A stretch of 64,000 nucleotides of DNA, taken from assembly GCA_011525665.1 (NCBI GenBank), contig WYAU01000021.1, forward strand, positions 1 through 64,000, read 5' to 3'. The DNA is from Candidatus Brocadia sp. GTDB lineage: Bacteria > Planctomycetota > Brocadiia > Brocadiales > Brocadiaceae. Positions 20,012-64,000 of this stretch are shown here, piece after piece. Made by a program: the position numbers and the translations under genes. The notes beneath the pieces were generated by a model. That model saw only the letters and a program-made list of their open reading frames with translations, was not told where the DNA came from and made no database searches. The stretch's first letter is position 1; each line of letters opens with the position of its first letter.

Positions 20012-20020
20012 ACGGTGCTC

Positions 20021-22669: not shown

Positions 22670-23462
22670 CGTTTCCGCTGATGAAAGAGAAAAACTCTAC
22701 AAGTAAAAAACAAAAATCAAGAATAAACAATTCCCTGCAGAATTTGGTAAAGGAGAACAAGAGAGATAGATTTACTCATATTTATGATAAATTTCTGAAT
22801 GATGGTATGGCAGTAATGGCAGCCAAGAATCGCACAACCTGTTTCAACGAGGAATGAAATGTCTCAACGAAAAACCCACTCAGATTAACTATCTAATGAA
22901 CTACTTTACGCAGTAAACTCACGAAAACATGATACAGAAAATATCTTGAAATTCAAGTGTTATTTAAAAAAAACGGAATATTATAGGGATTATTCTTTAA
23001 AATGCAAGTTTATTCTGAGTAAATATTTTATTTTTGATAAATTGCTTGGCAATACCCCATTCGGTCTATTAATCGGATTCATTGACTCGAAAATCTTCTG
23101 ATGTATTTGATCTGTTTATCCGGCATAAAAAAATCGAGGCAATCGAATATTAAGATATGGTCTTTGTATAGACCAATAAGGGTCAGAAAGGCGGAGATTC
23201 CATTCGTTTGTGTTTAACCATGCAGTTTTACTATACTCACAGTTATATTTACCCTGCAATTCTCATAAAAAACTTGTAATTATTTCTTTTTTTGCTATAG
23301 TAATAAATTTAATTGTGGTGAACGGTATCAGAACAACAAACCATGATTCTGTTTACCCCATGCGTAGCCCTATTTTATTGCATTACCCGTTTTTAGAATA
23401 GATACCTTGAAATACGTATTTCCTTCTCAATTAGCTAGTATTCATCTTATAAGCCGAAAGAA
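22670..23462. other. Divergent intergenic region between the two dabA genes
   Basis: AT-rich and the probable control region of both dab operons. An inverted repeat GGTCT-N6-AGACC lies at 23159-23174 and could bind a regulator; this is only a motif guess. A 63-codon plus frame (23210-23401) has a hydrophobic centre but no ribosome site or family features. No tRNA or terminator was found. Confidence 0.45.
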
Positions 23463-25973: not shown

Positions 25974-25984
25974 TTTTATAGTAT

Positions 25985-26120
25985 TACCGTGTAAAAACTT
26001 CTTTTTTTGTGTAAGTTTTTGCCTCCCCTTTATCGTTCGACTGAGCTCGCGACGAAGTTCCCTCCTTGTGAAGGGGGGGGAAAGAGGGGTGGTCAATTTG
26101 GTTGCGGCTATGCTGCGCTA
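25985..26120. repeat. About 135 bp GC-rich repeat element between dabA and dabB copy 2
   Basis: One end carries an ACTTC-T-run-AAGTTTTTGCC string and the other ends GGTTGCGGCTATGCTGCGCTA. The centre has CCTCCTTGTGAAGGGGGG. The first 45 bases match, with gaps, the inverted copy at 41753-41800. The last 24 bases match, with one difference, the inverted copy at 38401-38424. This is the most complete copy of the family in the window. Confidence 0.7.
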
Positions 26121-26281
26121 GATAATTTCTGCCAAAGCAGATAGTAGTGTTACAACCAGCAATTGGACAAAAGGTCGTGCAGAATGTAATTGTGGTCTTT
26201 ACCAAACGGGTATCAAGGCAACCGATTGAGAATTTTCTACCATGAATCCCGTCCGGAATGATTTCCGCGGAGAAGGGAGCT

Positions 26282-28219
26282 ATGCAATCATCTCAAATAC
26301 CGAATGAGAGTTTATCGTCTTATCTGTCGACGATGTATAAAACGGGAGACATGGCAATGTTTCTTCCGTATTTTATTCTAATCCCGATACTAGGATTTCT
26401 GATAAGCTGGTCAATTCCGAAGAAAAACGAAAAGGTTATCTCGTGGACAGCTTTTATCACCGTCGGGCTGCATTTGCTGACGGCTGCCGGATTTATTATC
26501 TACTGGCTTTTGCAACATCATCCTTACCTGAACCTGCCGGGATGGGTGCTCTACCAGACTTCCAAATACTCATTTTATTTTAGTCTTTATTTTGATAACG
26601 TCACAGCTACCTACCTGATCGTAGGCGATATCATCCTCTTCCAGGTAGCTGCTTACAGCCGCTGTTATTTACATCGCGAAGAAGGCTATAAAAGGTTTTT
26701 CAGCACGATTCTCTTATTTTATCTGGGATACAACATTACCATTTTTTCCGGCAATCTGGAAACCTTGTTTATCGGGTGGGAAATGCTCGGCATCTCTTCC
26801 TTCCTGCTGATTGCCTTTTACCGTGACCGCTATCTGCCTGCAAAAAATGCCGTAAAAGTAGTTTCCGTTTACCGGCTCGGCGACGTGGGGCTGATACTGG
26901 CCATGTGGCTGAGCCATCACCTGTGGCACGGGAATGTATCATTTCTGCAGTTAAGCAGCCATGAATTGGTAAGCGCAAAACTTCAAACAAACACCCTCCT
27001 TGGCCTCTTTGTTTCCTTGACAATACTAATGTCAGCAGTTGCAAAATCAGCGCAGCTTCCGGTAACCTCGTGGTTGCCACGCGCCATGGAAGGACCCACT
27101 CCGTCCAGCGCCATTTTTTACGGTAGCCTTTCTGTTCACATAGGCGTCTTTGTTCTCTTGCGCACGATGCCCTTTTGGGAGCATCAGTTAGCCGTCCGGA
27201 TTTTTATCGGTGTGATCGGGTTGGCAACCAGTGTCATTGCAACGGGAATTGCACGGGTACAGTCAACGATAAAAACCCAGATCGCCTATGCTTCCGCTGC
27301 GCAAATCGGGATTATGTTTATTGAAGTAGCTGCAGGCTTTGAGGAGGTTGCCCTCATTCACTTTGCCGGAAATGCCTTCCTGCGGGCGTACCAGCTCCTG
27401 GTTTCCCCTTCGGTGGTGAGTTACCTCATACGGGAACAGTTTTATAACTTTAAACCCCGCGAGCACACCTTTGAAGATTCTTTTTCTAGAAAGGCGGCAT
27501 ACACCATTTACATGCTCTGCATGAAAGAATGGAATCTTGACAACCTGATGTACCGCTATATGTGGAATCCACTGAAGTGGTTAGGGAAATGGCTGGATTT
27601 CCTTACCCTGAGCCGGGTTGTTTATTTCGGTATCCCGGCTTATTTTGCAGGGGTGGCTCTTGTTTACTACCGGGAACTGCTTTGGGAACCCTTTGAAAAA
27701 TCTCTTCCCTATCTGTTCTGTTCTATTGCCCTGATGCTGGTATTGAAATCATTCGCCGAAAGAAAATTGGCGCGTATGAGCTGGCTGCTGGTGATCATGC
27801 ATCACTTTTGGATTGCGCTGGCGATTTCCGTCAACGAACGGTTCTATTTCAACGAGGACCGCCTTTATTTAAGCGGTATTGTCGTTGCCGGAATTGTAGG
27901 GTTCATCATTCTCTGGTGGCTGCGCTCTCATGAAGGCAGCATTGATATGGATCAGTTTCACGGCCATTCGTACCGCCACCCGAAATTTGCATTTGTTTTT
28001 CTGCTGGCATGCCTGGGGCTATCGGGTTTCCCAATCTCGCCTACCTTTGTGGGGGAAGATCTGATCTTTATCCACATTCGTGAAGACCAGATTGTGTTGG
28101 CCATCATGGTTTCGCTGAGCTATGTTATTGACGGACTTTCCCTCATCCGGATGTACGCGCGCGTGTTTCTCGGACCGCATTCAAAATCAATTTACGAAAT
28201 GGCATACCGGTCTTCATAA
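26282..28219 (+). CDS. dabB: DabB-like proton-translocating subunit, copy 2
   Basis: About 645 residues, with many transmembrane helices of the NuoL/MrpA type. Signatures are GWEMLGISSFLLIAFYRDR, SAQLPVTSWLPRAMEGPTPSSAIFYGSLSVHIGVFVLLR and a HFAGNAFLRAYQLL segment parallel to copy 1. It works with the upstream dabA as an inorganic carbon uptake unit. I place the start at 26282 because GAAGGGAG lies directly before that ATG; an in-frame ATG at 26258 would add eight residues. The 300-base gap from dabA, filled by a repeat, contrasts with the coupled arrangement in copy 1. A RayT-type insertion follows 18 bases after its stop. Confidence 0.9.
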   Translation: MQSSQIPNESLSSYLSTMYKTGDMAMFLPYFILIPILGFLISWSIPKKNEKVISWTAFITVGLHLLTAAGFIIYWLLQHHPYLNLPGWVLYQTSKYSFYFSLYFDNVTATYLIVGDIILFQVAAYSRCYLHREEGYKRFFSTILLFYLGYNITIFSGNLETLFIGWEMLGISSFLLIAFYRDRYLPAKNAVKVVSVYRLGDVGLILAMWLSHHLWHGNVSFLQLSSHELVSAKLQTNTLLGLFVSLTILMSAVAKSAQLPVTSWLPRAMEGPTPSSAIFYGSLSVHIGVFVLLRTMPFWEHQLAVRIFIGVIGLATSVIATGIARVQSTIKTQIAYASAAQIGIMFIEVAAGFEEVALIHFAGNAFLRAYQLLVSPSVVSYLIREQFYNFKPREHTFEDSFSRKAAYTIYMLCMKEWNLDNLMYRYMWNPLKWLGKWLDFLTLSRVVYFGIPAYFAGVALVYYRELLWEPFEKSLPYLFCSIALMLVLKSFAERKLARMSWLLVIMHHFWIALAISVNERFYFNEDRLYLSGIVVAGIVGFIILWWLRSHEGSIDMDQFHGHSYRHPKFAFVFLLACLGLSGFPISPTFVGEDLIFIHIREDQIVLAIMVSLSYVIDGLSLIRMYARVFLGPHSKSIYEMAYRSS

Positions 28220-29375: not shown

Positions 29376-32072
29376 CTATATCTTTTCGATCTTTGCCCCG
29401 CAGACCTTGTATTCGGCCGTCTGGGTGATGTTGTCGTAGGCATCCTTTGTCAGCTTGTTCACGGCAGCTTCCGCAAAATGCATGGGCATCCAGATGACAC
29501 CCCTTTTTACCTTGTCAGAGACCTCGGCACGGGCAGTTATCTCACCACGACGTGATGCAACTCTTACCATTTCACCGTCGAAGATACCCAGTTCTTTAGC
29601 ATCCGCCTCATGTACCTCGACAAAGCAATCGTTTGTCTTATGGATAATACCGCTTGACCTTCTGGTCATCGTCCCTGCATTATAATGGTACAGGGTGCGT
29701 CCTGTGGTAAGCAGTAACGGGTATTCCTTATCAGGGCTCTCGGCAGGTGCACGGTAGGGTAATACAAAAAACTTCCCAAGTCCCCTTGGAAATTTGCCTT
29801 CATGCAAGAATTTTGTACCCGGGTGCTTTGTGTCGGGACAAGGCCATTGAATACCGTTTTGCTCGATCCTGGCATAATTAATGCCTGCGAACATGGGGGT
29901 AAGGCTTGCAATTTCGTCCCAGACCTCTTTGGGAGACGGATAACCCATATTATAACCCATACGCGTAGATATTTCACAGGTAATTTGCCAGTCGGGTTTC
30001 GTGTTCCCAATGGGATTGATTGCCTTGCGTACACGTTGTACACGCCGCTCAGTGTTGGTAAAGGTACCATCCTTTTCAGCGAAACTGGCGGCCGGCAGGA
30101 TAACATCCGCATACTTTGCCGTTTCTGACATGAAGATGTCCTGCACCACCAGGAATTCAAGGTTTTTTATCCCCTTAATGGTGTAATCCTGATTCGGTTC
30201 ACTAAGGACCGGATCTTCCCCGATTACATACAACGCCTTAAACTGGTTCTTGTTCATCCGCTCGAACATGGTTGGCGAAGTTGCCCCGAGGGTCCTTGAC
30301 AGTTTAACGCCCCATGCATTTTCAAACTTCTCCATAACCGCATTATCAGTGACGTCCTGGTAGCCAGGCATTTTATTGGGTATACACATATCCGTAGCAC
30401 CCTGTACGTTATTCTGTCCTCGGATGGGATTGACACCGGTACTGAGTTTTCCGATATGACCGGTCAACAGGGCGAGGTTTGCGATGGTCCTTACATTATC
30501 CGTACCGCAGGTATGTTCGGTAATTCCCAGGGTATAATAGATGGCCGATTTATCGGATCTTGCATACAACCGGGCAGCCTGGCGAATATCTTCTGCGGGA
30601 ATACCGGTATATTCAGAGGCCTTTTCTGGGGTAATATCCTTGAGGAATTCCTTGAGTTCCTCATAACCTTCGGTGCGTGTCTTAATGAACTCTCTATTTT
30701 CCAGACCCTCAGCAATGATAACGTGCGCCAGTGCGTTGAGAAGCCAGTTATCTGAACCAGGCTTGACAGGGAGGTACAGTTTTGCATGCTGGGCAAACCA
30801 GATTTTACGGGGGTCTGCCACGATGAACGTACACCCCTTCCGCAAGGCCTTTTTCATCTCCAACCCTACGATGGGATGCGCCTCTGTGGGGTTACCGCCA
30901 ATCAGGAAAATAAGCTTGCAATCCTTGATTTCACTGATGGAGTTGGTCATTGCACCGCTACCGAATGACATCGCCAGACCGGCGACGGAGGGTGCATGTC
31001 AGGTCCGGGCACACTGGTCTACGTTGTTGGTGCCAATCGCAGCCCGTGCAAATTTCATCGCCAGATAGTTTTCCTCATTGGTGCATCGCGAAGAACTCAG
31101 TACCCCAATGTAATCGGGTCCGTACTTTGCCTTTATTTCGCTCAATTTAGAAGCAACGAAATTCAACGCTTCGTCCCAGGTAGCCTCTTCGAATTTTCCA
31201 TTCTTTTTTATGAGAGGCTGCTTTAATCGGTCGGAATGATGGACAAAGTCATACCCAAATCGCCCTTTCACGCACAGATTCCCATCATTCGGAACAGACC
31301 CTGTCTTTGACGTCACCTTGACTACCTGATTCCCTTTCACGTTTAAATACATCGTACAGCCCACACCGCAATAAGGACAGGTAGTCTTAACCTGTTTAAA
31401 TTCCCAGTCCCGGCCCATTCCAACTGCCTGTTTCTCTACCAATGAACCAACAGGACAGGTAGATACGCACTGGCCGCATAACACACACGTCGTCTCACGC
31501 CTCGGTTTACCAAAGGGCAAACCTGTTTCTGTATCAAATCCACGATTCTTAAAATCAATAGCGTAGTCTTGTTGTACTTCGGCACAAATACGGACACATC
31601 GACCGCAAAGGATGCACTTGCTGGTATCCTGTTGAATGGCAGGATTTTCATCTTCAACAACGCCACCGTCGGGCTTTTCAAAGAAGCGGCTTTCCCGTAC
31701 ACCATACTCATAAGCGAGGTCTTGTAATGTACAGATACCACATTTCTCACAGGTCATGCAATCCCTGGGATGATCAGAAAGGATTAATTCCAAAACCATC
31801 TTGCGTGACTTCAGCACCTTCTCAGAGTCAGTCCGGATTACCATGCCATCAGTAGCTTCCGTACTGCAAGACGTAATAAGAGCACTTGAATTACCCCTCT
31901 CCACTTCCACCATACAAACACGGCACGCCGCAAAGGGTTCCAGGCGCGGGTCATGGCAAAGAGTTGGAATACGAACGCCAACGGAATTGGCTGCCTGCAA
32001 AACCGTTTTACCTTTATTCACCTCTACGGACTTACCGTCTATGTTTAATGTAATTTTTGGAACCATCACCAT
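29376..32072 (-). CDS. fdhA: Selenocysteine formate dehydrogenase alpha subunit
   Basis: One gene of 898 residues read through an in-frame UGA at 30999-31001, residue 358, which encodes selenocysteine. The context Q-C-A-R-T-Sec-H-A-P-S-V-A-G-L matches the active site of Sec formate dehydrogenases. The N-terminus has a [2Fe-2S] site (C39, C50, C53, C69), a His/Cys cluster (H101, C105, C108, C111 or C114), two ferredoxin-type clusters (C153-C163, C196-C206) and the CPYCGVGC cluster site (C242, C245, C249, C277). The rest is the molybdopterin or tungstopterin domain. This is the multi-cluster, NAD- or ferredoxin-linked cytoplasmic type that can reduce CO2 to formate. AAGGAG lies 8 bases before the ATG. 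A terminator follows. Confidence 0.93.
30971..31001 (-). promoter_or_regulatory. UGA codon and bacterial SECIS hairpin in fdhA
   Basis: Eighteen bases after the UGA comes GGTCT, held as a loop between TCGCC and GGCGA (30971-30985). The E. coli fdhF SECIS also has its apical GGUCU 18 bases after UGA, as I recall that sequence. This arrangement recruits SelB with Sec-tRNA and marks the UGA as sense. Confidence 0.88.
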
Positions 32073-51862: not shown

Positions 51863-52984
51863 ATGTTGAAAGAATTTGATTGCCGTTTTTTTGCCTCAGA
51901 GAAGCCATGCCGGTTCAAACTCGATTGCCCCGTTGACGATACGTGTCCCCAATACCAGCCCATGGGGAAACGGATCCTCATTATTAAACTGGCTGCCATT
52001 GGAGATGTCCTGAGAACCACCCCGCTCCTGCCTGTTTTAAGGGAAAAATACCCGCAATCCCATATCACGTGGATTACGGATCAATCATCCCTGTCAGCCT
52101 TGGAGGAAAACCCACACATCGATCGCCTCCTGACGTCAAATTATGAAAATACCCTGCGGCTTCAGGTCGAGACATTTGATATTGTAATCTGCCTGGACAA
52201 GGACACTGTGGCATCCAGCCTTGCATCCCTTGTGAAGGCAGAGCAGAAACTGGGCTTCGCACTCTCCGGGACAGGGCTCCTGTATCCCCTGAACAGGGAG
52301 GCTGAATACCTGTTCCGGTTAGGGGTATCCGATGAACTCAAGTTCCGGCAAAACAAGAAGACCTATCAGCAACTCATCTTTGAAGCCCTTGGATTGGGGG
52401 AAAAATACGGGGAATACGTCATTCACCTGCCTGAAAAATATACTGCTTATGGTGAGCAGTTAATGAAGCAATGGGGGATTCATAACGGCAGGCTGATTAT
52501 CGGCCTGAATACAGGTGCCGGGAAAAGGTTTGCTACAAAACGATGGAAATTAGAGGGCTTTGCCGAGCTTGCAGACCGGCTGTCAATTGACCTGAAGGCG
52601 CACGTGGTGCTCTTGGGAGGACCTGAAGAAGTTGAACGGAATAAGGAAATTGCTTCCAGGACAAAGTCCCGGATAATTGACAGCGGGTGCCATCACAGTC
52701 TGAAGGAATTTATGGGATTAATAAACCAGTGTCATCTGATTGTCACGGGAGACACGCTCGCCCTGCATCTTGCAATCGCACTGAAAAAACGGATCGTTAC
52801 CTTTTTCGGGTCTACGTGCCACCAGGAAATTGACCTTTATGGGAGGGGCAAAAAGCTCGTTGCCGGTGTGGATTGCGCCCCGTGCTATAAAGGTAATTGC
52901 AATACGATGATCTGCATGAAAAGCATACATGCCAATGATGTATTTCATGCGTGCAAAGAGGTATTAGAGACTAAATTATTTTAA
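51863..52984 (+). CDS. Glycosyltransferase family 9 (heptosyltransferase-like)
   Basis: About 373 residues. KRILIIKLAAIGDVLRTTPLLPVLREKYP is the GT9 N-terminal signature, and NTGAGKRFATKRWKLEGFAELADRL with LGGPEE, then GDTLALHLAIALKKRIVTFFGSTCHQEIDLYG form the nucleotide-sugar domain. It probably adds a heptose or other sugar to a lipopolysaccharide core. An N-terminal Cys-rich extension (CRFF...KPCRFKLDCPVDDTCPQYQP) precedes the fold and may bind a metal. The start at 51863 has AAGGAAA upstream; a GTG at 51833 in frame is less likely. Its 3' end overlaps the end of the convergent nuoN gene by nine bases. Confidence 0.87.
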   Translation: MLKEFDCRFFASEKPCRFKLDCPVDDTCPQYQPMGKRILIIKLAAIGDVLRTTPLLPVLREKYPQSHITWITDQSSLSALEENPHIDRLLTSNYENTLRLQVETFDIVICLDKDTVASSLASLVKAEQKLGFALSGTGLLYPLNREAEYLFRLGVSDELKFRQNKKTYQQLIFEALGLGEKYGEYVIHLPEKYTAYGEQLMKQWGIHNGRLIIGLNTGAGKRFATKRWKLEGFAELADRLSIDLKAHVVLLGGPEEVERNKEIASRTKSRIIDSGCHHSLKEFMGLINQCHLIVTGDTLALHLAIALKKRIVTFFGSTCHQEIDLYGRGKKLVAGVDCAPCYKGNCNTMICMKSIHANDVFHACKEVLETKLF

Positions 52985-54439
52985 TAAAAAGGTGGCTTGA
53001 TGGGCTATCTCCATGATCTTAGAAGGGAAGATTCCCAACTGGAGTGTCCCAAACACCGAGATGACGATGGCAGCAACGATTAAGGGAGAGATGGTAAGCG
53101 GAGTGAATTCCCGGTTGGATTCCCTCATGTACATAATTACCGTAATTCTGAGATAGTAGTAAACAGAGATGACGCTGTTGACCACGCCAATTACTGCAAG
53201 TCCAACATACCCTGATTTTATAGCGGCGCTGAAGATATAAAATTTTCCCACAAAGCCCGCCATGGGTGGAACGCCTGCCATGGAAAGCATGAAGAGCGTC
53301 ATCGCAATGGCCAGAAGCGGGTGCTTAAAACCCAACCCCGCGTAATCATTGATCTGTATGAATTCATCGCCCTTGTGGCTCAATACGATGACAATGGCGA
53401 ACGCCCCGATATTCATAAAGGTGTATGCCAGGATGTAGAACAATGTGCCCGACACACCCATATCATTTGCTGCTACCAGGGCAATGAGGAGGTAGCCGGC
53501 ATGGGCAATGCTGGAATATGCCAGCATACGTTTGATGTTCGTTTGTGCGATGGCCACAATATTTCCTACGGTCATCGTTAGCACGGCAAGGATGAAAATG
53601 ATCTTTTGCCATTCGTAATGGGCTGAACCGAAGGCAGTCATAAAGATGCGTAAAAAGGCGGCAAAGGCTGCAGCTTTGGGCCCTACAGACATGAAGGCCG
53701 TTATCGCCGTGGGTGCTCCTTCGTAGACGTCGGGTACCCATGCATGGAACGGAACGGAAGCGACCTTGAATCCGAGGCCAATGATTATCAACCCCATTCC
53801 CATGAGTAACAAGGGATCTGAGATACCACCCTTACCTGCAATAAAACCGGCGATTTGTTTGAGGTTGATGGTGCCCGTTGAACCGTAAATGACGGAGATG
53901 CCATAGAGCAGAAAACCCGTGGCGAATGCGCCGAGCAGGAAATATTTTAAAGACGCCTCGTTCGAGACGAGCTTTGACCGTTTAAAACCTGTCAGGATGT
54001 AAATGCTGATGGACATGACTTCCAGACCGACGTAAATATTTAACAAATCAGCACCGGCTGCCATCAGCATCATCCCTATCGTTGAAAATAAGAGGAGGGC
54101 ATAATACTCCCCGTAATTGATCTCCTCGCGTTTAATGTAGCTGTGTGAGATCAGGATCGTAAGCCCCGTGCTGAGTAAGAAGATAAAGTTAAAAAATAAG
54201 GAGTAATTATCGATAGTAAAAGTCTCGTTAAAGGAGAACAGTGTCGTTCCTGTAGGATTTCTGGCAAAGATGGCAGCGATGACAATTCCCGTGAGTGACA
54301 CATAAGCAAGGAGGTTCTTCTCTCCCAATCTTCTGGAAGTCAGGACGTCCAGCAGGAGTACAATCATACCAAAACCTGCCAGGATCAGGATAGGCAAGAT
54401 GCTCAGGATATTAAATGTCATCATCGAAATATTTGTCAT
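52976..54439 (-). CDS. nuoN: NADH-quinone oxidoreductase subunit N
   Basis: 487 residues, about 14 transmembrane helices. Conserved antiporter-type motifs are GLEVMSISIYILTGFKR, KVASVPFHAWVPDVYEGAPTAITAFMSVGPKAAAFA and AYSSIAHAGYLLI. It forms one of the proton channels of complex I. It is the last gene of the nuo operon, 10 bases after nuoM, and its stop overlaps the convergent glycosyltransferase stop. Confidence 0.94.
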   Translation of the reverse strand: MTNISMMTFNILSILPILILAGFGMIVLLLDVLTSRRLGEKNLLAYVSLTGIVIAAIFARNPTGTTLFSFNETFTIDNYSLFFNFIFLLSTGLTILISHSYIKREEINYGEYYALLLFSTIGMMLMAAGADLLNIYVGLEVMSISIYILTGFKRSKLVSNEASLKYFLLGAFATGFLLYGISVIYGSTGTINLKQIAGFIAGKGGISDPLLLMGMGLIIIGLGFKVASVPFHAWVPDVYEGAPTAITAFMSVGPKAAAFAAFLRIFMTAFGSAHYEWQKIIFILAVLTMTVGNIVAIAQTNIKRMLAYSSIAHAGYLLIALVAANDMGVSGTLFYILAYTFMNIGAFAIVIVLSHKGDEFIQINDYAGLGFKHPLLAIAMTLFMLSMAGVPPMAGFVGKFYIFSAAIKSGYVGLAVIGVVNSVISVYYYLRITVIMYMRESNREFTPLTISPLIVAAIVISVFGTLQLGIFPSKIMEIAHQATFLLK

Positions 54440-54449
54440 AAATAACCTT

Positions 54450-56027
54450 TTACCACTCAGTTCTGCACTCAGGAACTATGTCAATCTTTGGTATGACATT
54501 TTTTTGTAATTGCCCGGATTTTTTTGGTTTGTGAACACGGGACGCCACATTTGCCTTTTCTCCCACCTGTTTTAAGAGGTGATTTACCGAGGCATCCATC
54601 TTTCTCAGGAACGAGTTGGGATAGATGCCTATCCAGAAGATTGTCAGCATAATAGGGATGAGGATAGCAAATTCCCGTTTGTTAATATCTTTTAATGTCT
54701 TGTTTTCTTCATGGGTTATTTCCTGAAACATGACCCTTTGAAACATCCAGAGCATGTAGACTGCCGCAAGGATAATGCCCGATGTTGCGATGGATGCATA
54801 CAGAATGCGTGACTTGAATGTACCCACGAGAATAAGAAACTCCCCTACAAAACCGTTTAATCCAGGTAGTCCTATAGAAGATAGGGTGACGATCAAAAAA
54901 AAGGTGGCAAAGACAGGTAACTGTTTGGTTAAACCTCCAAAGTCTGCAATCATTCGTGTATGTCTTCTCTCATAGAGCATTCCGACGATAAGGAAGAGCG
55001 CCCCGGTGCTGAGTCCGTGATTAATCATCTGCGTAATGCCACCCTCGATGCCCTGGATATTGAAGGCAAATATTCCCAGCATGACAAAACCCAGGTGGCT
55101 CACGCTGGAATAGGCAACGAGTTTTTTCAGGTCGTCCTGCACCATGGAGACCAGTCCTCCATAAATAATACCGACAATCGCCATCCAGGAAATTACCGGG
55201 ATAAAGGTATGGCTTGCCTCCGGGAACAGGGGTAAACAGAATCGCACGAAGCCGTACGTTCCCATCTTTAGGAGGACACCCGCCAGGATTACACTCCCGG
55301 CTGTCGGCGCTTCCACATGGGCATCCGGCAGCCATGTGTGAAAGGGAAACATGGGGACTTTGATGGCAAAGGCAAATGCAAATGCCAGGAACAGCCAGAA
55401 TTGAACGGCAAAGGACAGATCGAGCCTGTAAAATTCCAATAGATTGAAGGTATATTCTCCCGTTGCCCTATGATTCAGGAAATACAAGGCAATGATGGCC
55501 AGGAGCATGAACACGCTGCCTGCCATGGTATAAATAAAAAACTTTACGGCTGCATAGATCCTCCTCGGCCCGCCCCAGATGCCGATAAGAAGATACATGG
55601 GGATCAGCATGAGTTCCCAGAACACGTAAAACAAAAATACATCCAGGGAGATAAATACACCAACCATGCCCGTCTCAAGCACCAGCATGGCAACCATGTA
55701 TTCCTTTACATTTTTCGTAATATGCCATGAGGCCAGGATGGAAATGGGAGTAATAAAGGTCGTCAGGAGTATCAGGAAGAGGCTGATTCCGTCGATTCCC
55801 ACATGGTAATGGACTCCGAAGGACGGTATCCACTGCAGTTTTTCGACAAACTGCATCTCATAGGTATGGGCGTCAAAGGTAAAGTATAGGGGGAGAGAAA
55901 TAAAAAATACCACTATGGAAACTAACAGGGCTGTAACCCTGATAAGTTCACTCCTTTTTGAATCCATCGAAAGGATAAAGAATACCCCGACGATGGGAAG
56001 AAAGGTTATAAGTGAAAGAATAGGCAT
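54450..56027 (-). CDS. nuoM: NADH-quinone oxidoreductase subunit M
   Basis: 525 residues. [38 protein letters not shown] holds the key Glu of TM5, and [41 protein letters not shown] and [16 protein letters not shown] follow. A basic tail of about 40 residues after the last helix is longer than usual. It is a proton-translocating subunit, 15 bases after nuoL. Confidence 0.95.
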
Positions 56028-56042
56028 AGAAATTCGGTTATT

Positions 56043-57977
56043 TCAAAATTTTACCTTGCCCAGGACGGCAAATATGATAATGAAGATACAACCAACCACG
56101 ATATAAAAGGCGTAATTGCGTACATATCCTGTTTGCAGGAGACGCAGGATATTGCTGAATCCACCGACAAGACGGGCAATGCCGTTTACAGAACCGTCTA
56201 TCATTCCGGCATCCACGCGCTTCCATAATTGAACCGAGATTTTTTTTATCGGGTTTACAAAGAGGGCATCGTAGATTTCATCGACATAATATTTGTTCAG
56301 CAGGAGTTTATAGATTACACGAAACCGTTCTGCCAGTTTTCCGGGCAGTTCGGGTTTTTTACTATACATCTGATATGCAAGGAATATACCCGCAAGCGCT
56401 ATGGCGGTGGAAACGACCATCATGAGGGAGGAAAGCCATGCGCTGTGGTGTACACCAGCCTCTGCTCCGGAAACTTCAGTGTGGCCGTGCCCGCCGAATA
56501 CCGGTGCCAAAAAGCTGTTAATGACGCTTGCGCCAGGAATCCCAAGAAATCCGCCAAAAAAGGAAAGGGCTGCAAGTACTGTTAACGGAAGAGTCATATT
56601 TCCCGGAGATTCATGGAGGTGTTCCATTGCGTGATGTTCCACCCTGGATACCCCGTGAAACGTCATGAATAACAGGCGGAACATGTAAAAGGCCGTTAAA
56701 AAGGCCGCAACGGCACCGACTATCCAATACAGAAGGTTTCCGCGGACAAGTGATTCCAGCAAAATTTCGTCTTTGCTGAAGAATCCTGCAAAGGGCGGAA
56801 TGCCTGCAATGGCCACCGCGCCAACGAGGAAGGTCTTGTAGGTAACGGGAATATGATTCCTCAGTCCGCCCATCTTCCTCATGTCCTGTTCACCGGACAG
56901 GGCATGGATAACACTGCCTGAACCCAGGAATAGCAATGCCTTAAAAAATGCGTGGGTCATGAGATGGAATACACCTGCTGTAAATGCGCCCACACCACAG
57001 GCCAGAAACATATATCCCAGTTGGCTGATGGTAGAATAAGCCAGTACACGTTTAATATCATTTTGCACCAACCCTATGGATGCCGCAAACAGCGCTGTTA
57101 CGGCGCCAACACTTGCAACCACGGTCATCGTGAAGGGGGATAGCATATACAGGACGTTGCACCGGGCGATCATATAGACACCCGCTGTTACCATGGTCGC
57201 TGCATGGATGAGTGCGCTGACAGGCGTAGGACCCTCCATGGCATCCGGTAACCATGTATACAGGGGTATCTGGGCTGATTTCCCCGTTGCACCCATGAAC
57301 ATGAGCAGGGTAATGATCGTTACCGTGAAGCTACCCGCCTCAAAATTTCCATGAGAAGCGGCACTGAATACCTCCGTAAAATCGATACTATGAAAGGTCA
57401 GAAAGACGAGCATGATTCCCAGGGCAAAGCCAAAGTCGCCTACCCGGTTGACCACGAAGGCCTTTTTGGCTGCATTTGAGGCAGACTTCTTCTCAAACCA
57501 AAAACCTATAAGGAGATATGAACATAACCCTACTGCCTCCCACCCTATGAACATCAGGAGAAAGTTGTTGCCTAAAACGAGCAATAACATAGAGAATGTG
57601 AACAGGTTCAGGTAGCAAAAATAACGGTGGTAACCTTTGTCCTCGTGCATATAGCCAATCGAATAGATGTGAATGAGGAATCCCACACCAGTGACGATAA
57701 GGATCATAAGCGACGATAAGGGGTCTACCTGCAAACCGGCCGTGGATTTAAATGAACCGGATTCAATCCAGCTAAAGAGTTGTTTTTCAAACAGCCGTTC
57801 GCCGGGGGGAAGCAGAAGGAGTCCGCAAAATACGAGTACCGAGATAAAAAAGGACAGACCGATTGACCCGCAGGCAACGTAACCAACAGTTTCCTTGCGC
57901 AGTCTTTTCCCGATGAGCCCATTTATGGCCGTACCAATTAAGGGGAATAATAAAATCAATCCTACGAGATTAAGCAT
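56043..57977 (-). CDS. nuoL: NADH-quinone oxidoreductase subunit L
   Basis: 644 residues. The N-terminal loop, GWEAVGLCSYLLIGFW, SAQIPLYTWLPDAMEGPTPVSALIHAATMVTAGVYMIARC and the C-terminal lateral helix with final TM are present. GPTPVSALIHAATMVTAG distinguishes it from the DabB proteins (GPTPSSA). It provides the distal proton channel of complex I. It follows nuoK with a 97-base gap, the longest in the operon. Confidence 0.96.
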   Translation of the reverse strand: MLNLVGLILLFPLIGTAINGLIGKRLRKETVGYVACGSIGLSFFISVLVFCGLLLLPPGERLFEKQLFSWIESGSFKSTAGLQVDPLSSLMILIVTGVGFLIHIYSIGYMHEDKGYHRYFCYLNLFTFSMLLLVLGNNFLLMFIGWEAVGLCSYLLIGFWFEKKSASNAAKKAFVVNRVGDFGFALGIMLVFLTFHSIDFTEVFSAASHGNFEAGSFTVTIITLLMFMGATGKSAQIPLYTWLPDAMEGPTPVSALIHAATMVTAGVYMIARCNVLYMLSPFTMTVVASVGAVTALFAASIGLVQNDIKRVLAYSTISQLGYMFLACGVGAFTAGVFHLMTHAFFKALLFLGSGSVIHALSGEQDMRKMGGLRNHIPVTYKTFLVGAVAIAGIPPFAGFFSKDEILLESLVRGNLLYWIVGAVAAFLTAFYMFRLLFMTFHGVSRVEHHAMEHLHESPGNMTLPLTVLAALSFFGGFLGIPGASVINSFLAPVFGGHGHTEVSGAEAGVHHSAWLSSLMMVVSTAIALAGIFLAYQMYSKKPELPGKLAERFRVIYKLLLNKYYVDEIYDALFVNPIKKISVQLWKRVDAGMIDGSVNGIARLVGGFSNILRLLQTGYVRNYAFYIVVGCIFIIIFAVLGKVKF

Positions 57978-58074
57978 AGTATATCCTGGTCTGACGGTAT
58001 TGGAACCAGAGAGATTTTATTTTCAGATTCCGGATCAAAATTCAAAATTTCAAAATAAAACGCGCATACCGAAA

Positions 58075-58377
58075 TTACCACTTCATGATATTTATATCGT
58101 CTATGTTTACGGTTTCTTTATTCCTGAACACCGCAACAATAATTGCCAGGCCGACAGCGGCCTCGGCTGCAGCAACAGTCATGGTAAAAAACACAAACAA
58201 CTGGCCCTGCATGGAATTCAGGTAGTGGGCAAATGCTACAAACGACAGGTTAACGGCGTTGAGCATGAGTTCAATGCACATGAAGATTATAATGGCATTC
58301 CTTCGCACCAGGACGCCAACAACACCAAGCGTAAACAGGATTGCACTCAGTACGAGATAGTGGGTGACGGTAATCAT
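58075..58377 (-). CDS. nuoK: NADH-quinone oxidoreductase subunit K
   Basis: 100 residues with three transmembrane helices and the conserved Glu residues in [11 protein letters not shown] and [13 protein letters not shown]. It starts directly at the end of nuoJ with no gap. A small membrane subunit next to the quinone channel of complex I. Confidence 0.95.
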
Positions 58378-58905
58378 TTATAGTTTCCTCTTTGCCAGCA
58401 TAATGGCGCCGATAGCCGCTACGAACAGGAGGATAGAAGTTATCTCGAACGGCAGCAGATAATCAGTAAATAATAAGTTACCGATCAGTTTTGTGTTTCC
58501 TATGCTATTGATGTAAGCGGTGGTATATTCGCCATGTTTTCCCTGAAGGAGTTTCGACCTGAGAACGATACAAATGACGGTAAAAAAGGCGATTCCCATG
58601 AGAACGGCAGGTATCCTTTGAAAAGGTAATGCGTTCTTTGCCTCTTCCTTTATATCCAGGTTTAACAACATGATCACAAAGAGGAAGAGCACCATGATGG
58701 CCCCTGCGTATACAATGATCTGAACAGCGGCAATGAACTGTGCCTCAAGCAATATGTAAAGCACCGCAATGCTGACCATGGTCTGAATAAGATATAAAGC
58801 GCTGAATACCGGGTTTTTCTCAAAAATAAGATAGACCCCGCTTGCTACAGCGACCGCAGCCATAATATAAAATAAATATGCTTCCATGATAAATCCCAAA
58901 CCCAA
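58378..58905 (-). CDS. nuoJ: NADH-quinone oxidoreductase subunit J
   Basis: 175 residues, five hydrophobic helices; VYAGAIMVLFLFVIMLLNL is the standard NuoJ segment with the pi-bulge region. The first codon choice among MGLGFIMEAYL is uncertain: the second Met (58887) may be the start. It follows nuoI by 48 bases. Confidence 0.93.
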   Translation of the reverse strand: MGLGFIMEAYLFYIMAAVAVASGVYLIFEKNPVFSALYLIQTMVSIAVLYILLEAQFIAAVQIIVYAGAIMVLFLFVIMLLNLDIKEEAKNALPFQRIPAVLMGIAFFTVICIVLRSKLLQGKHGEYTTAYINSIGNTKLIGNLLFTDYLLPFEITSILLFVAAIGAIMLAKRKL

Positions 58906-58953
58906 TTACCAAACAATCTGTCACAACCCACCCTACCACTTTTTAGCCAATGA

Positions 58954-59379
58954 TTACCCCGGTAAATTCCTCTTCCTCGTGAGGTCCAATAATTGTTCCT
59001 TATCGAATACGTTTTTGTTCTGATATGTTGCCAGTTCAAAGGTGTCTCTGAGAATTATGGCCCTTACCGGACAGGCCTCTTCACAGTACCCGCAGAAAAT
59101 GCAGCGGAAGGCATCCAATTCATAAGTTTTGGGGTATCTCCTGTGCGTTTCATCCTCAGCGCCCTCTACAGAAATACACTGTGAGGGACATACCCTTGCA
59201 CACAGCCCGCATGCGACACACTTTTCCCTCCCGTCTTTTCCTATTTGCAATTCAGGCAGCCCGCGAAATCGTGCAGAGAGTTTCGGCCGTTCGTCGGGGT
59301 ACTGCATGGTGACGCAGGTTTTCGGATTAAGAAACCGCGTGAGTGTAAGTATCAGACCTTTAATAAGCGGTAAAATCAT
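58954..59379 (-). CDS. nuoI: NADH-quinone oxidoreductase subunit I
   Basis: 141 residues. Two ferredoxin-type clusters are clear: CVACGLCARVCP and CIFCGYCEEACP, binding N6a and N6b. The N-terminal amphipathic part contacts the membrane arm. It relays electrons from the peripheral arm to the N2 cluster. It starts one base after the nuoH stop. Confidence 0.95.
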   Translation of the reverse strand: MILPLIKGLILTLTRFLNPKTCVTMQYPDERPKLSARFRGLPELQIGKDGREKCVACGLCARVCPSQCISVEGAEDETHRRYPKTYELDAFRCIFCGYCEEACPVRAIILRDTFELATYQNKNVFDKEQLLDLTRKRNLPG

Positions 59380-59380
59380 G

Positions 59381-60376
59381 TTATTCCTTAAGAATCATGA
59401 TAAGTCCTGTAATGATGATATTGAGCAGAGAAAGGGGCAACAGGAATTTCCATCCAAAATGCATTAACTGATCGTATCTGAGTCTCGGAAACGTTGCCCG
59501 TATCCATATAAAGAAAAATAAGCAGGCTGACAATTTTATCAGAAACCATACTACCGGAGGTAAAAATGGCCCGTGCCATCCGCCCAGGAAAAAAGTCACG
59601 GCAATTGCAGACACCGTGATCATGTTGGCATATTCTGCCATGAAGAACATGGCAAATTTCATGCTGCTGTATTCCGTGTGGTATCCCGCCACAAGCTCTG
59701 ATTCCGCTTCCGGAAGATCAAACGGAGTACGATTGACCTCCGCAATAGCGCTCGTGGCGTAAATAAAAAATCCAAGTGGTTGTAACACAATGTTCCATAA
59801 TTTCGCCTGGGCAGTGACCACATCCACAAGGCTTAATGACTCAGTTAACATAACCACCCCAATGAGTGATAGCCCAAGGGTCAGTTCGTAACTGATCATC
59901 TGGGCTGAAGACCGTATCCCGCCTAATAACGAATATTTGTTGTTTGATGCCCATCCGGCCATAACGACACCGTAAATACCCAAAGAAGATACGGCAAAAA
60001 TGTAAAGAAACCCGATGTTGATATCGGTAATTACCAGATCCACTTTGTAACCGAATATCTTTACTTTATCTCCGAACGGGATGACGGCAAAGGTCATCAG
60101 GGCGGGAATCATGGCCATAGCGGGTGCCAGTACAAAAAGCAGCTTGCTTGCCTTCTCCGGAATAATATCCTCCTTGAACAGGAGCTTTATGCCGTCGGCA
60201 ATGGGCTGCAATAATCCATGAGGACCGACCCGCATCGGACCCAGCCGTACCTGCATGTGCGCCAGTATCTTTCTTTCGAGCCAGATCATGGAGATAACAG
60301 TAATCTGGATCATGCCAAACACAAGCAGGACCTTAATGCAAGCAATAATAAGATAGACAAGTAATTCTTTGTTCAT
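59381..60376 (-). CDS. nuoH: NADH-quinone oxidoreductase subunit H
   Basis: 331 residues, eight to nine helices. ERKILAHMQVRLGPMRVGPHGLLQPIADGIKLLFKED at the quinone-chamber end, AEVNRTPFDLPEAESELVAGYHTEYSSMKFAMFFMAEY and RATFPRLRYDQLMHFGWK are the standard blocks. It forms the quinone-binding chamber. It begins directly at the stop of the tandem desulforedoxin gene. Confidence 0.96.
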   Translation of the reverse strand: MNKELLVYLIIACIKVLLVFGMIQITVISMIWLERKILAHMQVRLGPMRVGPHGLLQPIADGIKLLFKEDIIPEKASKLLFVLAPAMAMIPALMTFAVIPFGDKVKIFGYKVDLVITDINIGFLYIFAVSSLGIYGVVMAGWASNNKYSLLGGIRSSAQMISYELTLGLSLIGVVMLTESLSLVDVVTAQAKLWNIVLQPLGFFIYATSAIAEVNRTPFDLPEAESELVAGYHTEYSSMKFAMFFMAEYANMITVSAIAVTFFLGGWHGPFLPPVVWFLIKLSACLFFFIWIRATFPRLRYDQLMHFGWKFLLPLSLLNIIITGLIMILKE

Positions 60377-60658
60377 TTAGCCGGCGTTTGCCTCTTTCCG
60401 TTGCATTCTCTGGCCGCAACACTCCAGGATACCGGTCGTTTCAACAACAACGCCTATCTCCTGTCCGCAGATATTGCAAACAAATTTTACCCCACCTTCA
60501 GGCTTATGATGTACCGTTGTCCAGGTGGCCATCATTCCCTTGACGCCCACAAAACGCATCTCCTGACCGCAGCATACCAGCACCCCAAAGCCTTCTTTGG
60601 CGACAACCACTTTTTGTCTGCATATTTCGCAAAAATAAGTTTGCCCCTTTTTTGCCAT
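60377..60658 (-). CDS. Tandem desulforedoxin-like iron protein in the nuo operon
   Basis: 93 residues made of two similar halves. Each has C-x2-C-x15-C-C: C10, C13, C29, C30 and C61, C64, C80, C81, the exact spacing of desulforedoxin (the N-terminal domain of desulfoferrodoxin). Each half should bind a rubredoxin-type Fe(Cys)4 centre and carry one electron. The gene sits between nuoG (3 bases away) and nuoH (no gap), so it is made together with complex I. I know of no complex I subunit of this kind. It may pass electrons to or from the peripheral arm or act as an oxygen/superoxide defence. Zinc instead of iron cannot be excluded. Confidence 0.85.
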   Translation of the reverse strand: MAKKGQTYFCEICRQKVVVAKEGFGVLVCCGQEMRFVGVKGMMATWTTVHHKPEGGVKFVCNICGQEIGVVVETTGILECCGQRMQRKEANAG

Positions 60659-60661
60659 ATC

Positions 60662-63307
60662 TTACTCTGCCTCCCTGTAAATTTTGACAGGGGTATATGC
60701 CCTGTCGCGCAGGAGATTTACCGGCACCCATTCATAATCTTCGGGAATAAAAACTGTACCTTCGGGTGTTTTATCTGTAACCTTTGCCTTGAGTTTTATC
60801 TTATCCCGCACCGATTCAACCGTAACCATATCACCATCCTGGATATGCATTTCCCGTGCATCTTTTCGATTGATTTCTGCAAAACATGCCGGGGCAACCA
60901 GGGTGAGGGACTTTGAATGCCGGGAAAAAGCACCCTGATGATTCAAACTGGCACCCGTAAGCAGTATAAAGGGGAAATCTTTTTTCCTTATAATATTGAA
61001 AGTTGCCGGTTGAATTATTTCAAACGTATATTTTGCCGGTCTGTTCTTATCATAGACAAAAGATACCCATTGAAATTCCTTCCTCTTCAAACGGTCGTAA
61101 TTAACGCCGGCATACGGGGGTGCTATGCTTCCTATTTCGCTCAATATCTCCTTTGCAGATGCGTACGAGTAGGGCTGTCCCATCTTTGTGGCAAGATCAC
61201 ACACAATTTGCCAGTCGGGTCTGGCATCTCCCACCGGCGGAATAGCCTTATTGAGCCGTTGTACGGTCATCCCCATGTTGGTAAATGTCCCTTCTCTTTC
61301 GGAATAAGTAACGGCGGGAAGGACGACATCTGCCAGTTGCGCTGTTTCCGTCAGGAATGTATCCTGTACAACGATAAAGTCGATCTTTTTGAATGCCTCC
61401 CGGACATCTTTACCATTGGGGTAGTTTACGATGGGGTTTTCTCCCATCACGTAAAGTGCCTTTAGTTTTCCGTTGAGTGCAAGATCAATAAGATTTAAAG
61501 ATTCTTTTTGGAAGATATCATTCCCCGGTTTTACACCCCATAGTTTTTCGACCTTTTCCCTGCCGGTCGTATCGGTGATGTCGAGGTATCCCGGAAAGAA
61601 TCCGGGGACTACCCCCATGTCATTTGCGCCCTGAGAGTTATTGTGGGTTCTCGAAAACAAAACTGAAACCTTACGGGGACCGGTTTTTTCATCATGAGCG
61701 GCATTAATCAGTGAGCAGAGGTTCATCAAAGCCTTTATTGTTATTTCTCCCAACGGATCTTCTTCAATGTCCTTACCGCAGACGATGCAACAATTCCCTG
61801 GCTTTGTTAATATCATGGATACGTTCCTCATGGTTTCTTCGGAAATACCGGTTGACTGAGAAGCCTCCCTTACACTGAATTTATCCACGGAGGAACGCCA
61901 TTCAGGAAAATTGTTTGTCGCTGCTTCCGCCTTTTTTAAGTCAACAAGGTTTTCATCAATAATAATCTTAATGAAGGCGTTTATTAACATGGCCTGGCTT
62001 CCCAGGGCATAGTTTAAACGGATATCATTTCTGGCCATGCTGTTGAACAGAACATTTCTCACATTGGCAATAATGAGATTGGCATTGTTCATCCGTATGG
62101 ATTTCCGGGCCATACTTCCCGCTACAGGATGTGCCTCTGTCATATCGGCTCCGAGAAAGAATAAGGTATTTGCATTCTCAATTTCCTTCAGTGACGCTGA
62201 TGCAATCCCGTTAACAACAGATTTATAAATCAGACTGTTCAGATACGGCGATTTTATATTGGACATGTTGTCTACGTGATTCGTCCCCAGCACCGAGCGG
62301 CAGAATTTCTGGAAGAGATAGTTGTCCTCATTGGTGCATCTTTCGGAACCAATACCGCCAGCCAATTTCCCCCCGTGTTCAGCGATAATTTGCCGGAATC
62401 TTTTTGTCGTATGCTCAATGGCGTCTTTCCACGATGCGGGGCATAACTCGCCGTTCTTTCTGATGAGGGGTGTTTTTATCCGTTCAGGTGAATGGATAAA
62501 TTCGTGGCCAAACCGTCCCTTAATGCAGAGATTGCCTTCATTTATTCCTAAACAGTCATTGGATACGATACGGCGCACGCTTTCCGTTTTTGTATTTACT
62601 ACAATCGTGCAACCAACGGAACAATAGGGACAGATTGTCGTCGTACTTTCGAATTCCCATGGCCTGCCCTTGAACCCCAGGGTTCTGTCCTGCCAGGCGC
62701 CTGTTGGGCACACCGCAACGCAACCACCGCAGAAACTGCACTCGAGCGGTCTGTCAAAAGCAGTACCGATGACCGTTTTAAAACCGCGATTCTGGAAGTC
62801 TATGGCGCTGACCCCTTCAATCTCTTTGCATGCGCTTACACACCGCCCGCACAAAATACACCGGTTCCGGTTTAATTCCAGAACCGGATTGTCTCTGATC
62901 ACCGGGTGGTGCATCCTTACGGTCTTAAATCTGCCCGGTCCCAGATTCAGCTCATAGGTAACATTTTGCAATCCGCATTCACCGGATTTATCGCAGGTAG
63001 GACAGGAGAGTTCGTGGTGAGCCAGCAGATATTCCATGGCGGACTTTCGGTACCGGACTACCTTTGGTGTATTTACCTTTACCACCATCCCTTCAGAAAC
63101 GGGGTGTGCACAGGCAAACCGGTGTACAGTTCTTTTCCGTTCGGTGACCTCTACAAAGCAGAGTCTGCATCCTCCAAACTGGGAGAGTTTGGGATGGTAG
63201 CACAATCCGGGAACGTAAATATCGTTATCCCGCGCTGCCTGGAAGATATTCGTTCCTTCAGGGGCAACGATGGGTTTGTCATCAATAACAAGATGTATAA
63301 TATTCAT
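60662..63307 (-). CDS. nuoG: NADH-quinone oxidoreductase subunit G, formate-dehydrogenase-like
   Basis: 881 residues. [2Fe-2S] ligands C36, C47, C50, C66; His98 with C102, C105, C111; two ferredoxin clusters C150-C160 and C190-C200; CPYCSVGC (C226, C229, C233). The long molybdopterin-type domain is kept, but where fdhA has Sec the aligned segment is NHVDNMSNIKSPYLN, with no Cys, Sec or Ser-type ligand in register. So it is probably a structural and electron-transfer NuoG and not an active formate dehydrogenase. Its overall architecture matches the fdhA at 29376-32072. It overlaps nuoF by four bases. Confidence 0.9.
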   Translation of the reverse strand: MNIIHLVIDDKPIVAPEGTNIFQAARDNDIYVPGLCYHPKLSQFGGCRLCFVEVTERKRTVHRFACAHPVSEGMVVKVNTPKVVRYRKSAMEYLLAHHELSCPTCDKSGECGLQNVTYELNLGPGRFKTVRMHHPVIRDNPVLELNRNRCILCGRCVSACKEIEGVSAIDFQNRGFKTVIGTAFDRPLECSFCGGCVAVCPTGAWQDRTLGFKGRPWEFESTTTICPYCSVGCTIVVNTKTESVRRIVSNDCLGINEGNLCIKGRFGHEFIHSPERIKTPLIRKNGELCPASWKDAIEHTTKRFRQIIAEHGGKLAGGIGSERCTNEDNYLFQKFCRSVLGTNHVDNMSNIKSPYLNSLIYKSVVNGIASASLKEIENANTLFFLGADMTEAHPVAGSMARKSIRMNNANLIIANVRNVLFNSMARNDIRLNYALGSQAMLINAFIKIIIDENLVDLKKAEAATNNFPEWRSSVDKFSVREASQSTGISEETMRNVSMILTKPGNCCIVCGKDIEEDPLGEITIKALMNLCSLINAAHDEKTGPRKVSVLFSRTHNNSQGANDMGVVPGFFPGYLDITDTTGREKVEKLWGVKPGNDIFQKESLNLIDLALNGKLKALYVMGENPIVNYPNGKDVREAFKKIDFIVVQDTFLTETAQLADVVLPAVTYSEREGTFTNMGMTVQRLNKAIPPVGDARPDWQIVCDLATKMGQPYSYASAKEILSEIGSIAPPYAGVNYDRLKRKEFQWVSFVYDKNRPAKYTFEIIQPATFNIIRKKDFPFILLTGASLNHQGAFSRHSKSLTLVAPACFAEINRKDAREMHIQDGDMVTVESVRDKIKLKAKVTDKTPEGTVFIPEDYEWVPVNLLRDRAYTPVKIYREAE

Positions 63308-64000
63308 TTTATCGCCATAAAATTACATTTTTCATAACAGAGGTTACACTTGATGCATTTCTCTTTATGAATAAAAGCAACCTCCGTTGTACTCCCGCTG
63401 ATTGCCTTCACAGGACAGTTACGAATACATGCCTGGCATTTGGTACATTTTTCAGGAACCACTTCATACCTGTGAAGGACGACACACATGGCGGTTGGGC
63501 AGGTTTTGTCACGAATGTGTGCAATGTATTCATCCTTGAAATACCGTATGGTAGATTTTACCGGATTGGGAGCCGATTGTCCCAGACCGCAGAGGGACAT
63601 GACCTTCATCTCGTCACTCATCTGTTCCAGTGTTTCCAGATCTTTTTCTTCTCCCTGTCCCATGGTAATGCGGGTGAGAATATCCAGCATGAGGGTGGTG
63701 CCAATCCTGCAGGGCGGGCATTTTCCGCACGATTCATTGGCGCAGAAATTCATAAAGAACCTGGCTAACTCTACCATACAGGTAGTATCGTCAACGACGA
63801 CAAAACTTCCGGAACCCATCATTGCACCAGCCCCGACAAGCGACTCGTAATCGATGGGTGAATCCAGCAGGGACTCCGGAAGGCACCCGCCCGAGGGCCC
63901 CCCGATTTGCACTGCCTTGAATTTTTTCTTTTTCGGAATGCCCCCGCCCATGTCGAAGACGATTTGCCTGATCGTAGTACCCATGGGAACCTCAACGAGC
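63304..64000 (-). CDS. nuoF: NADH-quinone oxidoreductase subunit F with ferredoxin tail (partial)
   Basis: The C-terminal 231 residues; the gene runs past the right edge of the window. The FMN/SLBB domain end (GGPSGGCLPESLLDSPIDYESLVGAGAMMGSGSFVVVDD) and the [4Fe-4S] motif ESCGKCPPCRIGTT with the later Cys in SLCGLGQSAPNP are visible. After that comes an extra 2x[4Fe-4S] ferredoxin domain (CTKCQACIRNCP and CIKCNLCYEKC), as in HydB/NfnB-type and electron-bifurcating NADH subunits rather than in ordinary NuoF. Its stop overlaps the nuoG start (ATGA). Confidence 0.93.
   Translation of the reverse strand, partial: LVEVPMGTTIRQIVFDMGGGIPKKKKFKAVQIGGPSGGCLPESLLDSPIDYESLVGAGAMMGSGSFVVVDDTTCMVELARFFMNFCANESCGKCPPCRIGTTLMLDILTRITMGQGEEKDLETLEQMSDEMKVMSLCGLGQSAPNPVKSTIRYFKDEYIAHIRDKTCPTAMCVVLHRYEVVPEKCTKCQACIRNCPVKAISGSTTEVAFIHKEKCIKCNLCYEKCNFMAIK

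Follow-up and report, generated by a model that had tools for sequence, protein, structure and literature searches.

Oxygen tolerance is a limit on anammox in the ocean as well as in wastewater plants. Native desulforedoxin is a homodimer. The ligand set described for the desulforedoxin (Dx) centre is CX2CX15CC (PMC3116461). With regard to oxygen defence, one published survey reports rubrerythrin and flavodiiron proteins in all anammox species surveyed, the same section also stating that rubrerythrins are conserved only in Scalindua, and gives Kuenenia as lacking Nror (PMC10156729). On the respiratory side, a related Kuenenia NUO-2, which may correspond to the operon treated below, was described in 2013 as being without FMN and possibly ferredoxin-reducing (PMC3578206). 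Under ammonium limitation Kuenenia upregulates several subunit genes of its nuo operon (PMC7438415).

Here we describe a tandem desulforedoxin that belongs to both of these settings, being encoded within the complex I operon of most anammox bacteria and within an oxygen-defence operon in one marine clade. The gene is not listed among the anammox oxygen-defence genes in the available portions of two published studies (PMC10156729, PMC13253579), and our literature search returned no paper on desulforedoxin together with a nuo operon or together with anammox. The desulforedoxin domain itself is known; in the papers searched we found no description of the tandem form, of its constant position within a complex I operon or of its move.

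Results

A tandem desulforedoxin encoded between nuoG and nuoH

The window analysed, a stretch of 64,000 nucleotides, comes from a Brocadia-like organism; its close relatives with names include Candidatus Brocadia, Jettenia, Kuenenia, Loosdrechtia and Scalindua, which makes it an anammox planctomycete. Between two genes identified by Pfam and NCBIfam as nuoG and nuoH, it encodes a 93-residue protein, MAKKGQTYFCEICRQKVVVAKEGFGVLVCCGQEMRFVGVKGMMATWTTVHHKPEGGVKFVCNICGQEIGVVVETTGILECCGQRMQRKEANAG, for which we use the short name tDX (Table 1). The initial annotation had read this protein as a tandem desulforedoxin with two C-x2-C-x15-C-C sites, 3 bases from nuoG and with no gap to nuoH, and both the identity and the spacing were borne out, the gene lying on the minus strand. 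Pfam Desulfoferrod_N (PF06397) matched in two stretches (E=6.5e-16), NCBIfam TIGR00319 desulf_FeS4 matched with E=2.8e-11, and phmmer returned the desulforedoxin of D. gigas as the best solved relative (E=8.7e-7). An AlphaFold2 model (pLDDT 85, pTM 0.78) had 1dxg as its best Foldseek match (TMt 0.92, rmsd 0.6 A over 35 residues, probability 1.00), the E value reaching only 0.095 because the domain comprises 35 residues; against a viral fold library the model gave no match. Both metal sites are intact, and a short helix is predicted at residues 42-46 of the linker that joins them. Given that desulforedoxin is natively homodimeric, tDX could be a fused desulforedoxin dimer. The Pfam search gave no match to the superoxide reductase (SOR) domain PF01880, which rules out tDX being a Dx-SOR.

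Table 1. Positions of tDX, its domains and the neighbouring nuo genes in the window
Feature	Position	Strand	Description
tDX gene	60377..60658	minus	93-aa tandem desulforedoxin; start ATG at 60658, coding 60380-60658, stop TAA at 60379-60377
Desulforedoxin domain 1	60551..60658	minus	residues 1-36; Cys10, Cys13, Cys29, Cys30; Foldseek match to 1dxg
tDX linker	60497..60550	minus	residues 37-54; invariant M42, M43, W46, T47, P53
Desulforedoxin domain 2	60395..60496	minus	residues 55-88; Cys61, Cys64, Cys80, Cys81
nuoF 3' part	63304..63999	minus	whole gene 617 aa, G000:C6:63307-65157
nuoG	60662..63307	minus	881 aa, NuoG/formate-dehydrogenase-like; stop end at 60662, 3 bases before tDX
nuoH	59381..60376	minus	Pfam, NCBIfam; ATG at 60376, 0 bases from tDX stop
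nuoI, J, K, L, M, N	52976..59379	minus	downstream of nuoH, same operon

All eight cysteines are invariant in an alignment of 43 distinct homologue sequences, as are the five linker residues marked in Table 1, and dN/dS of tDX against its relatives is about 0.03-0.13. Since the gene is moreover present in 29 of the 33 genomes of the family, we regard it as a real coding gene; conservation and dN/dS together rule out a chance or spurious open reading frame.

We infer that the metal is iron, although zinc could also occupy these sites. If tDX were a small zinc protein with a structural or regulatory role, its Cys4 sites carrying no electrons, this would accord with zinc-finger-like Pfam hits to the CxxC parts, which are weak and all fall below the curated cut-offs, and with the ability of CxxC sites in general to bind Zn. 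However, the exact desulforedoxin spacing, a desulforedoxin family match that is the best by far, the 0.6 A fit and the redox-gene company that tDX keeps after relocation (see below) make such a protein decidedly improbable.

The surrounding nuo operon and its HydB-like NuoF

Followed past the window edge, the operon of the source genome is complete and reads nuoA-B-C-D-E-F-G-tDX-H-I-J-K-L-M-N. Its NuoF is of the HydB/NfnB type, with an N-terminal [2Fe-2S] domain and two [4Fe-4S] clusters at the C-terminus, and is closest to bifurcating HydB/NfnB proteins (753 bits, versus 425 bits for Thermus Nqo1); the stretches GRGGGGFPTG and CNADEGDPGAFMDRS are kept, close to those of NfnB/HydB-type proteins. 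Because NuoF is so much nearer to HydB/NfnB than to Thermus Nqo1, a flavin donor is plausible in this complex, and a flavin site in NuoF is possible judging by its similarity to HydB. Inspection alongside the FdhA of the same window shows that the catalytic Cys/Sec known from formate dehydrogenase is absent from NuoG. The gene of this formate-dehydrogenase-like FdhA (29376-32072, minus strand) is split by a single in-frame TGA at 30999-31001, in the context CART-U-HAPSVAGL that is the usual place of selenocysteine; a gene for tRNA-SeC (anticodon tca; G000:C57:12252-12344) is present in the source genome, and FdhA is probably a selenoprotein. Elsewhere in the window (18014-28219) we recognised by eye two divergent gene pairs, each made up of a large UPF0753/DabA-like gene and a DabB gene resembling NuoL, which are probably inorganic-carbon transporters.

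Conservation of the operon position in Brocadiaceae

Wherever the 5' part of nuoH is assembled in Brocadiaceae, in 29 of 29 genomes, the order is nuoG-tDX-nuoH; in one of them (G032) the junction is interrupted, with nuoH on another contig. Four family genomes gave no tDX match, and in these nuoH is either unmatched as well or represented by a fragment where a contig ends. Brocadiaceae have essentially no desulforedoxin-domain protein other than tDX, partial duplicates occurring in G032, where a partial second copy of the C-terminal domain lies downstream of tDX (L007:40-195, minus strand). In several Brocadiaceae, small PIN-like or Hic-like genes sit beside tDX between nuoG and nuoH (L009, L016, L024, L026, L029). 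The published numbers of the Kuenenia genes, 2474 for nuoG and 2482 for nuoL (PMC7438415), would fit two Hic-like genes, tDX, nuoH, nuoI, nuoJ and nuoK between them, as in G020; on this count the tDX of K. stuttgartiensis, with a mass of roughly 10 kDa, would be KSMBR1_2477.

The operon position extends to a second family, with nuoG-tDX-nuoH in 8 Scalinduaceae genomes (G310, G371, G396, G381, G407, G408, G412 and G415). In the nuo operons of relatives tDX is thus kept in 29 Brocadiaceae and 8 Scalinduaceae genomes, a conservation that the initial annotation had proposed to look for.

Relocation of tDX in Scalindua and its absence in other anammox lineages

In five Scalindua genomes (G332, G353, G410, G411 and G413) nuoG is followed by nuoH after 24-156 bases, and we found no tDX remnant at this junction. 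These five, together with a sixth (G409) in which no nuoH was detected, have a single tDX away from nuo, within an operon that encodes an NROR-like FAD protein, tDX, a rubredoxin-like/Dx (Rd-Dx) protein, two rubrerythrins and a single Dx, in that order, and a TAT-SOR precedes it wherever the contig is long enough to show this; the locus of G413 was assigned from Dx matches with the same spacing and not from a gene-by-gene reading. The tDX tree groups the relocated copies as a single clade (100/99) nested in Scalindua (84/89), and in the nuoH tree the tDX-less nuo operons likewise form one clade (100/100), sister to the tDX-bearing Scalindua (98/97). Since each tree gives one clade, the simplest history is that tDX relocated once in Scalindua. 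The copy in the oxygen-defence operon being a paralogue is ruled out by the presence of one tDX per genome and by the nesting of these copies in Scalindua as one clade. In a comparison of NuoF-L for compensating changes in the tDX-less clade, the number of sites was too small and the branches differed in length.

The relocated operon has counterparts without tDX. An NROR-like/RdDx/rubrerythrin cluster without tDX is found in G412, whose tDX is in nuo (L160), and an NROR-RdDx-rubrerythrin cluster is also present in G416 (L164), a Scalinduaceae genome that has no tDX at all. The nuo operon of G416 (L130, G416:C154) reads nuoB-C-D-H-I-J-K-L-M and is without nuoE, nuoF and nuoG; elsewhere that genome has NuoF-like genes that are more distant (up to 56%). 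In a planctomycete outside Brocadiales, a distant tandem Dx-like gene (L084:1645-1905, plus strand) adjoins a thioredoxin-reductase-like FAD gene.

Beyond these families, two genomes of the group f4 carry hydrazine synthase alpha together with a nuo operon of the same type, and no desulforedoxin at all was detected in them. In f2 genomes the nuo operon is diverged, and one single Dx of the ordinary form is encoded outside it. As a guess, f4 corresponds to Anammoxibacteraceae and f2 to Bathyanammoxibiaceae. The f4 and f2 genomes carry HZS-alpha and are without tDX, which rules out tDX as a universal anammox marker.

Is tDX a subunit of complex I?

That tDX is bound to complex I had been suggested in the initial annotation, together with the remark that no known complex I subunit has this form. 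The latter holds for the solved structures: no solved complex I chain is a homologue of tDX, and only desulforedoxin and desulfoferrodoxin chains match it. Were tDX genuinely an accessory subunit in the Brocadiales complex, sitting on the peripheral arm with a structural function or as a relay within the complex, this would explain the strict gene order at all readable Brocadiaceae junctions and in the 8 Scalinduaceae, which is kept even where toxin-antitoxin-like or PIN-like genes are inserted beside tDX, as well as the tight spacing to its neighbours, the conserved linker residues M42, M43, W46 and T47, and the joint absence of tDX and nuoEFG from the nuo operon of G416. On the other hand, complex I occurs without an adjoining tDX in the five Scalindua genomes with directly linked nuoG and nuoH, whose single tDX lies elsewhere without a remnant left behind, and with no desulforedoxin at all in the two f4 genomes; the sixth Scalindua genome, with relocated tDX and no detected nuoH, also speaks against this role, as does the lack of any similar solved chain, and operon membership is no proof of contact with the complex. 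As an obligate subunit the suggestion therefore fails on the normal nuoG-nuoH junctions of the Scalindua clade and of the two other anammox genomes. The idea of a fixed subunit is weakened by the relocation, though for Brocadiaceae it may still hold, and we consider it unlikely overall.

A role for tDX in iron handling or assembly, protecting or maturing the Fe-S clusters of complex I, for instance those of NuoG or NuoI, would suit a gene placed between two subunit genes and missing together with nuoEFG in G416. We think it quite improbable, as tDX was relocated to an oxygen-defence operon while complex I was kept, and Pfam and NCBIfam give desulforedoxin only, with no match to an assembly-factor family. 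It might also be argued that tDX is a passenger oxygen-defence gene, placed in the nuo operon for co-expression only and with no link to complex I. It does move as a unit, and in some genomes this junction has also taken up further small genes of PIN-like or Hic-like type; yet these differ from genome to genome, whereas tDX holds one position across two families, and a mere passenger is in our judgement rather unlikely.

Candidate electron partners

The finding that tDX resides mostly in the complex I operon but moved to an oxygen-defence operon suggests a carrier for oxygen or NO detoxification and not a fixed part of complex I. We propose that tDX is a one-electron carrier leading from a pyridine-nucleotide flavoenzyme to enzymes that detoxify O2, ROS and NO, a reading we regard as evenly poised between right and wrong. 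The initial annotation had offered an extra electron carrier or a protective iron protein as possibilities, and this gains indirect support from the presence of the same orthologue in the Scalindua NROR/rubrerythrin/SOR operon. The published absence of Nror from Kuenenia (PMC10156729) and the FAD gene beside the distant tandem Dx-like gene of the other planctomycete also favour the carrier reading.

Under this proposal tDX would consist of two fused rubredoxin-like Fe(Cys)4 units carrying single electrons. In most anammox bacteria it would be made together with complex I and would be reduced where NAD(P)H and flavin act on the peripheral arm, the HydB/NfnB-type module NuoEFG acting as its putative reductase, a role that in the one marine Scalindua clade may have been taken over by the NADH:rubredoxin-oxidoreductase-like flavoprotein. 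The electrons would then pass to rubrerythrins, flavodiiron proteins and, where present, a one-iron superoxide reductase, these enzymes removing O2, ROS and NO. SOR as the sole acceptor is ruled out, because three genomes (G015, G016 and G022) carry tDX with no SOR detected; rubrerythrin and flavodiiron proteins are better candidates. The source genome has a Dx-less SOR and, in a separate cluster, a rubredoxin, a TrxR-like FAD protein, a rubrerythrin and a cytochrome c'. It is possible that this classical Brocadia rubredoxin does the same job alone, in redundancy with tDX.

Although speculative, tDX might also be the dedicated outlet of an electron-bifurcating complex I, in which electrons from NADH would be split at the NuoF flavin and part of them sent through tDX to the enzymes acting on O2, ROS and NO. 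We find this more specific version doubtful; if true, it would mean that complex I is coupled directly to detoxification in anammox bacteria. More generally, the switching of tDX between the complex I operon and the NROR/rubrerythrin operon points to a link between respiration and detoxification that can be tested.

Comparison with known systems

Relative to the desulforedoxin of D. gigas (1dxg), tDX has the same CX2CX15CC ligands and the same fold, with about 50% identity in the aligned domain; the D. gigas protein is a separate chain of 36 residues, whereas tDX unites two such units in one chain of 93 residues through a conserved MMxTWT linker. With desulfoferrodoxin, the two-iron superoxide reductase (Dx-SOR), it shares the Dx domain (PF06397) but not the catalytic SOR domain, and the anammox SORs examined are separate Dx-less proteins. 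With complex I, tDX is connected by being encoded in the same operon, in which the HydB-like NuoF brings extra Fe-S clusters; it is no known subunit of the complex, however, and the nuo operon does without it in one clade of Scalindua. Finally, in the chains in which rubredoxin and NADH:rubredoxin oxidoreductase serve FDP, SOR and rubrerythrin, tDX would by analogy be expected to behave alike as a one-electron Fe(Cys)4 carrier linking a flavoprotein to O2/ROS reductases, and the relocated gene sits in just such an operon; it differs from rubredoxin in its carrier fold and in being encoded, in most anammox bacteria, inside the operon of complex I.
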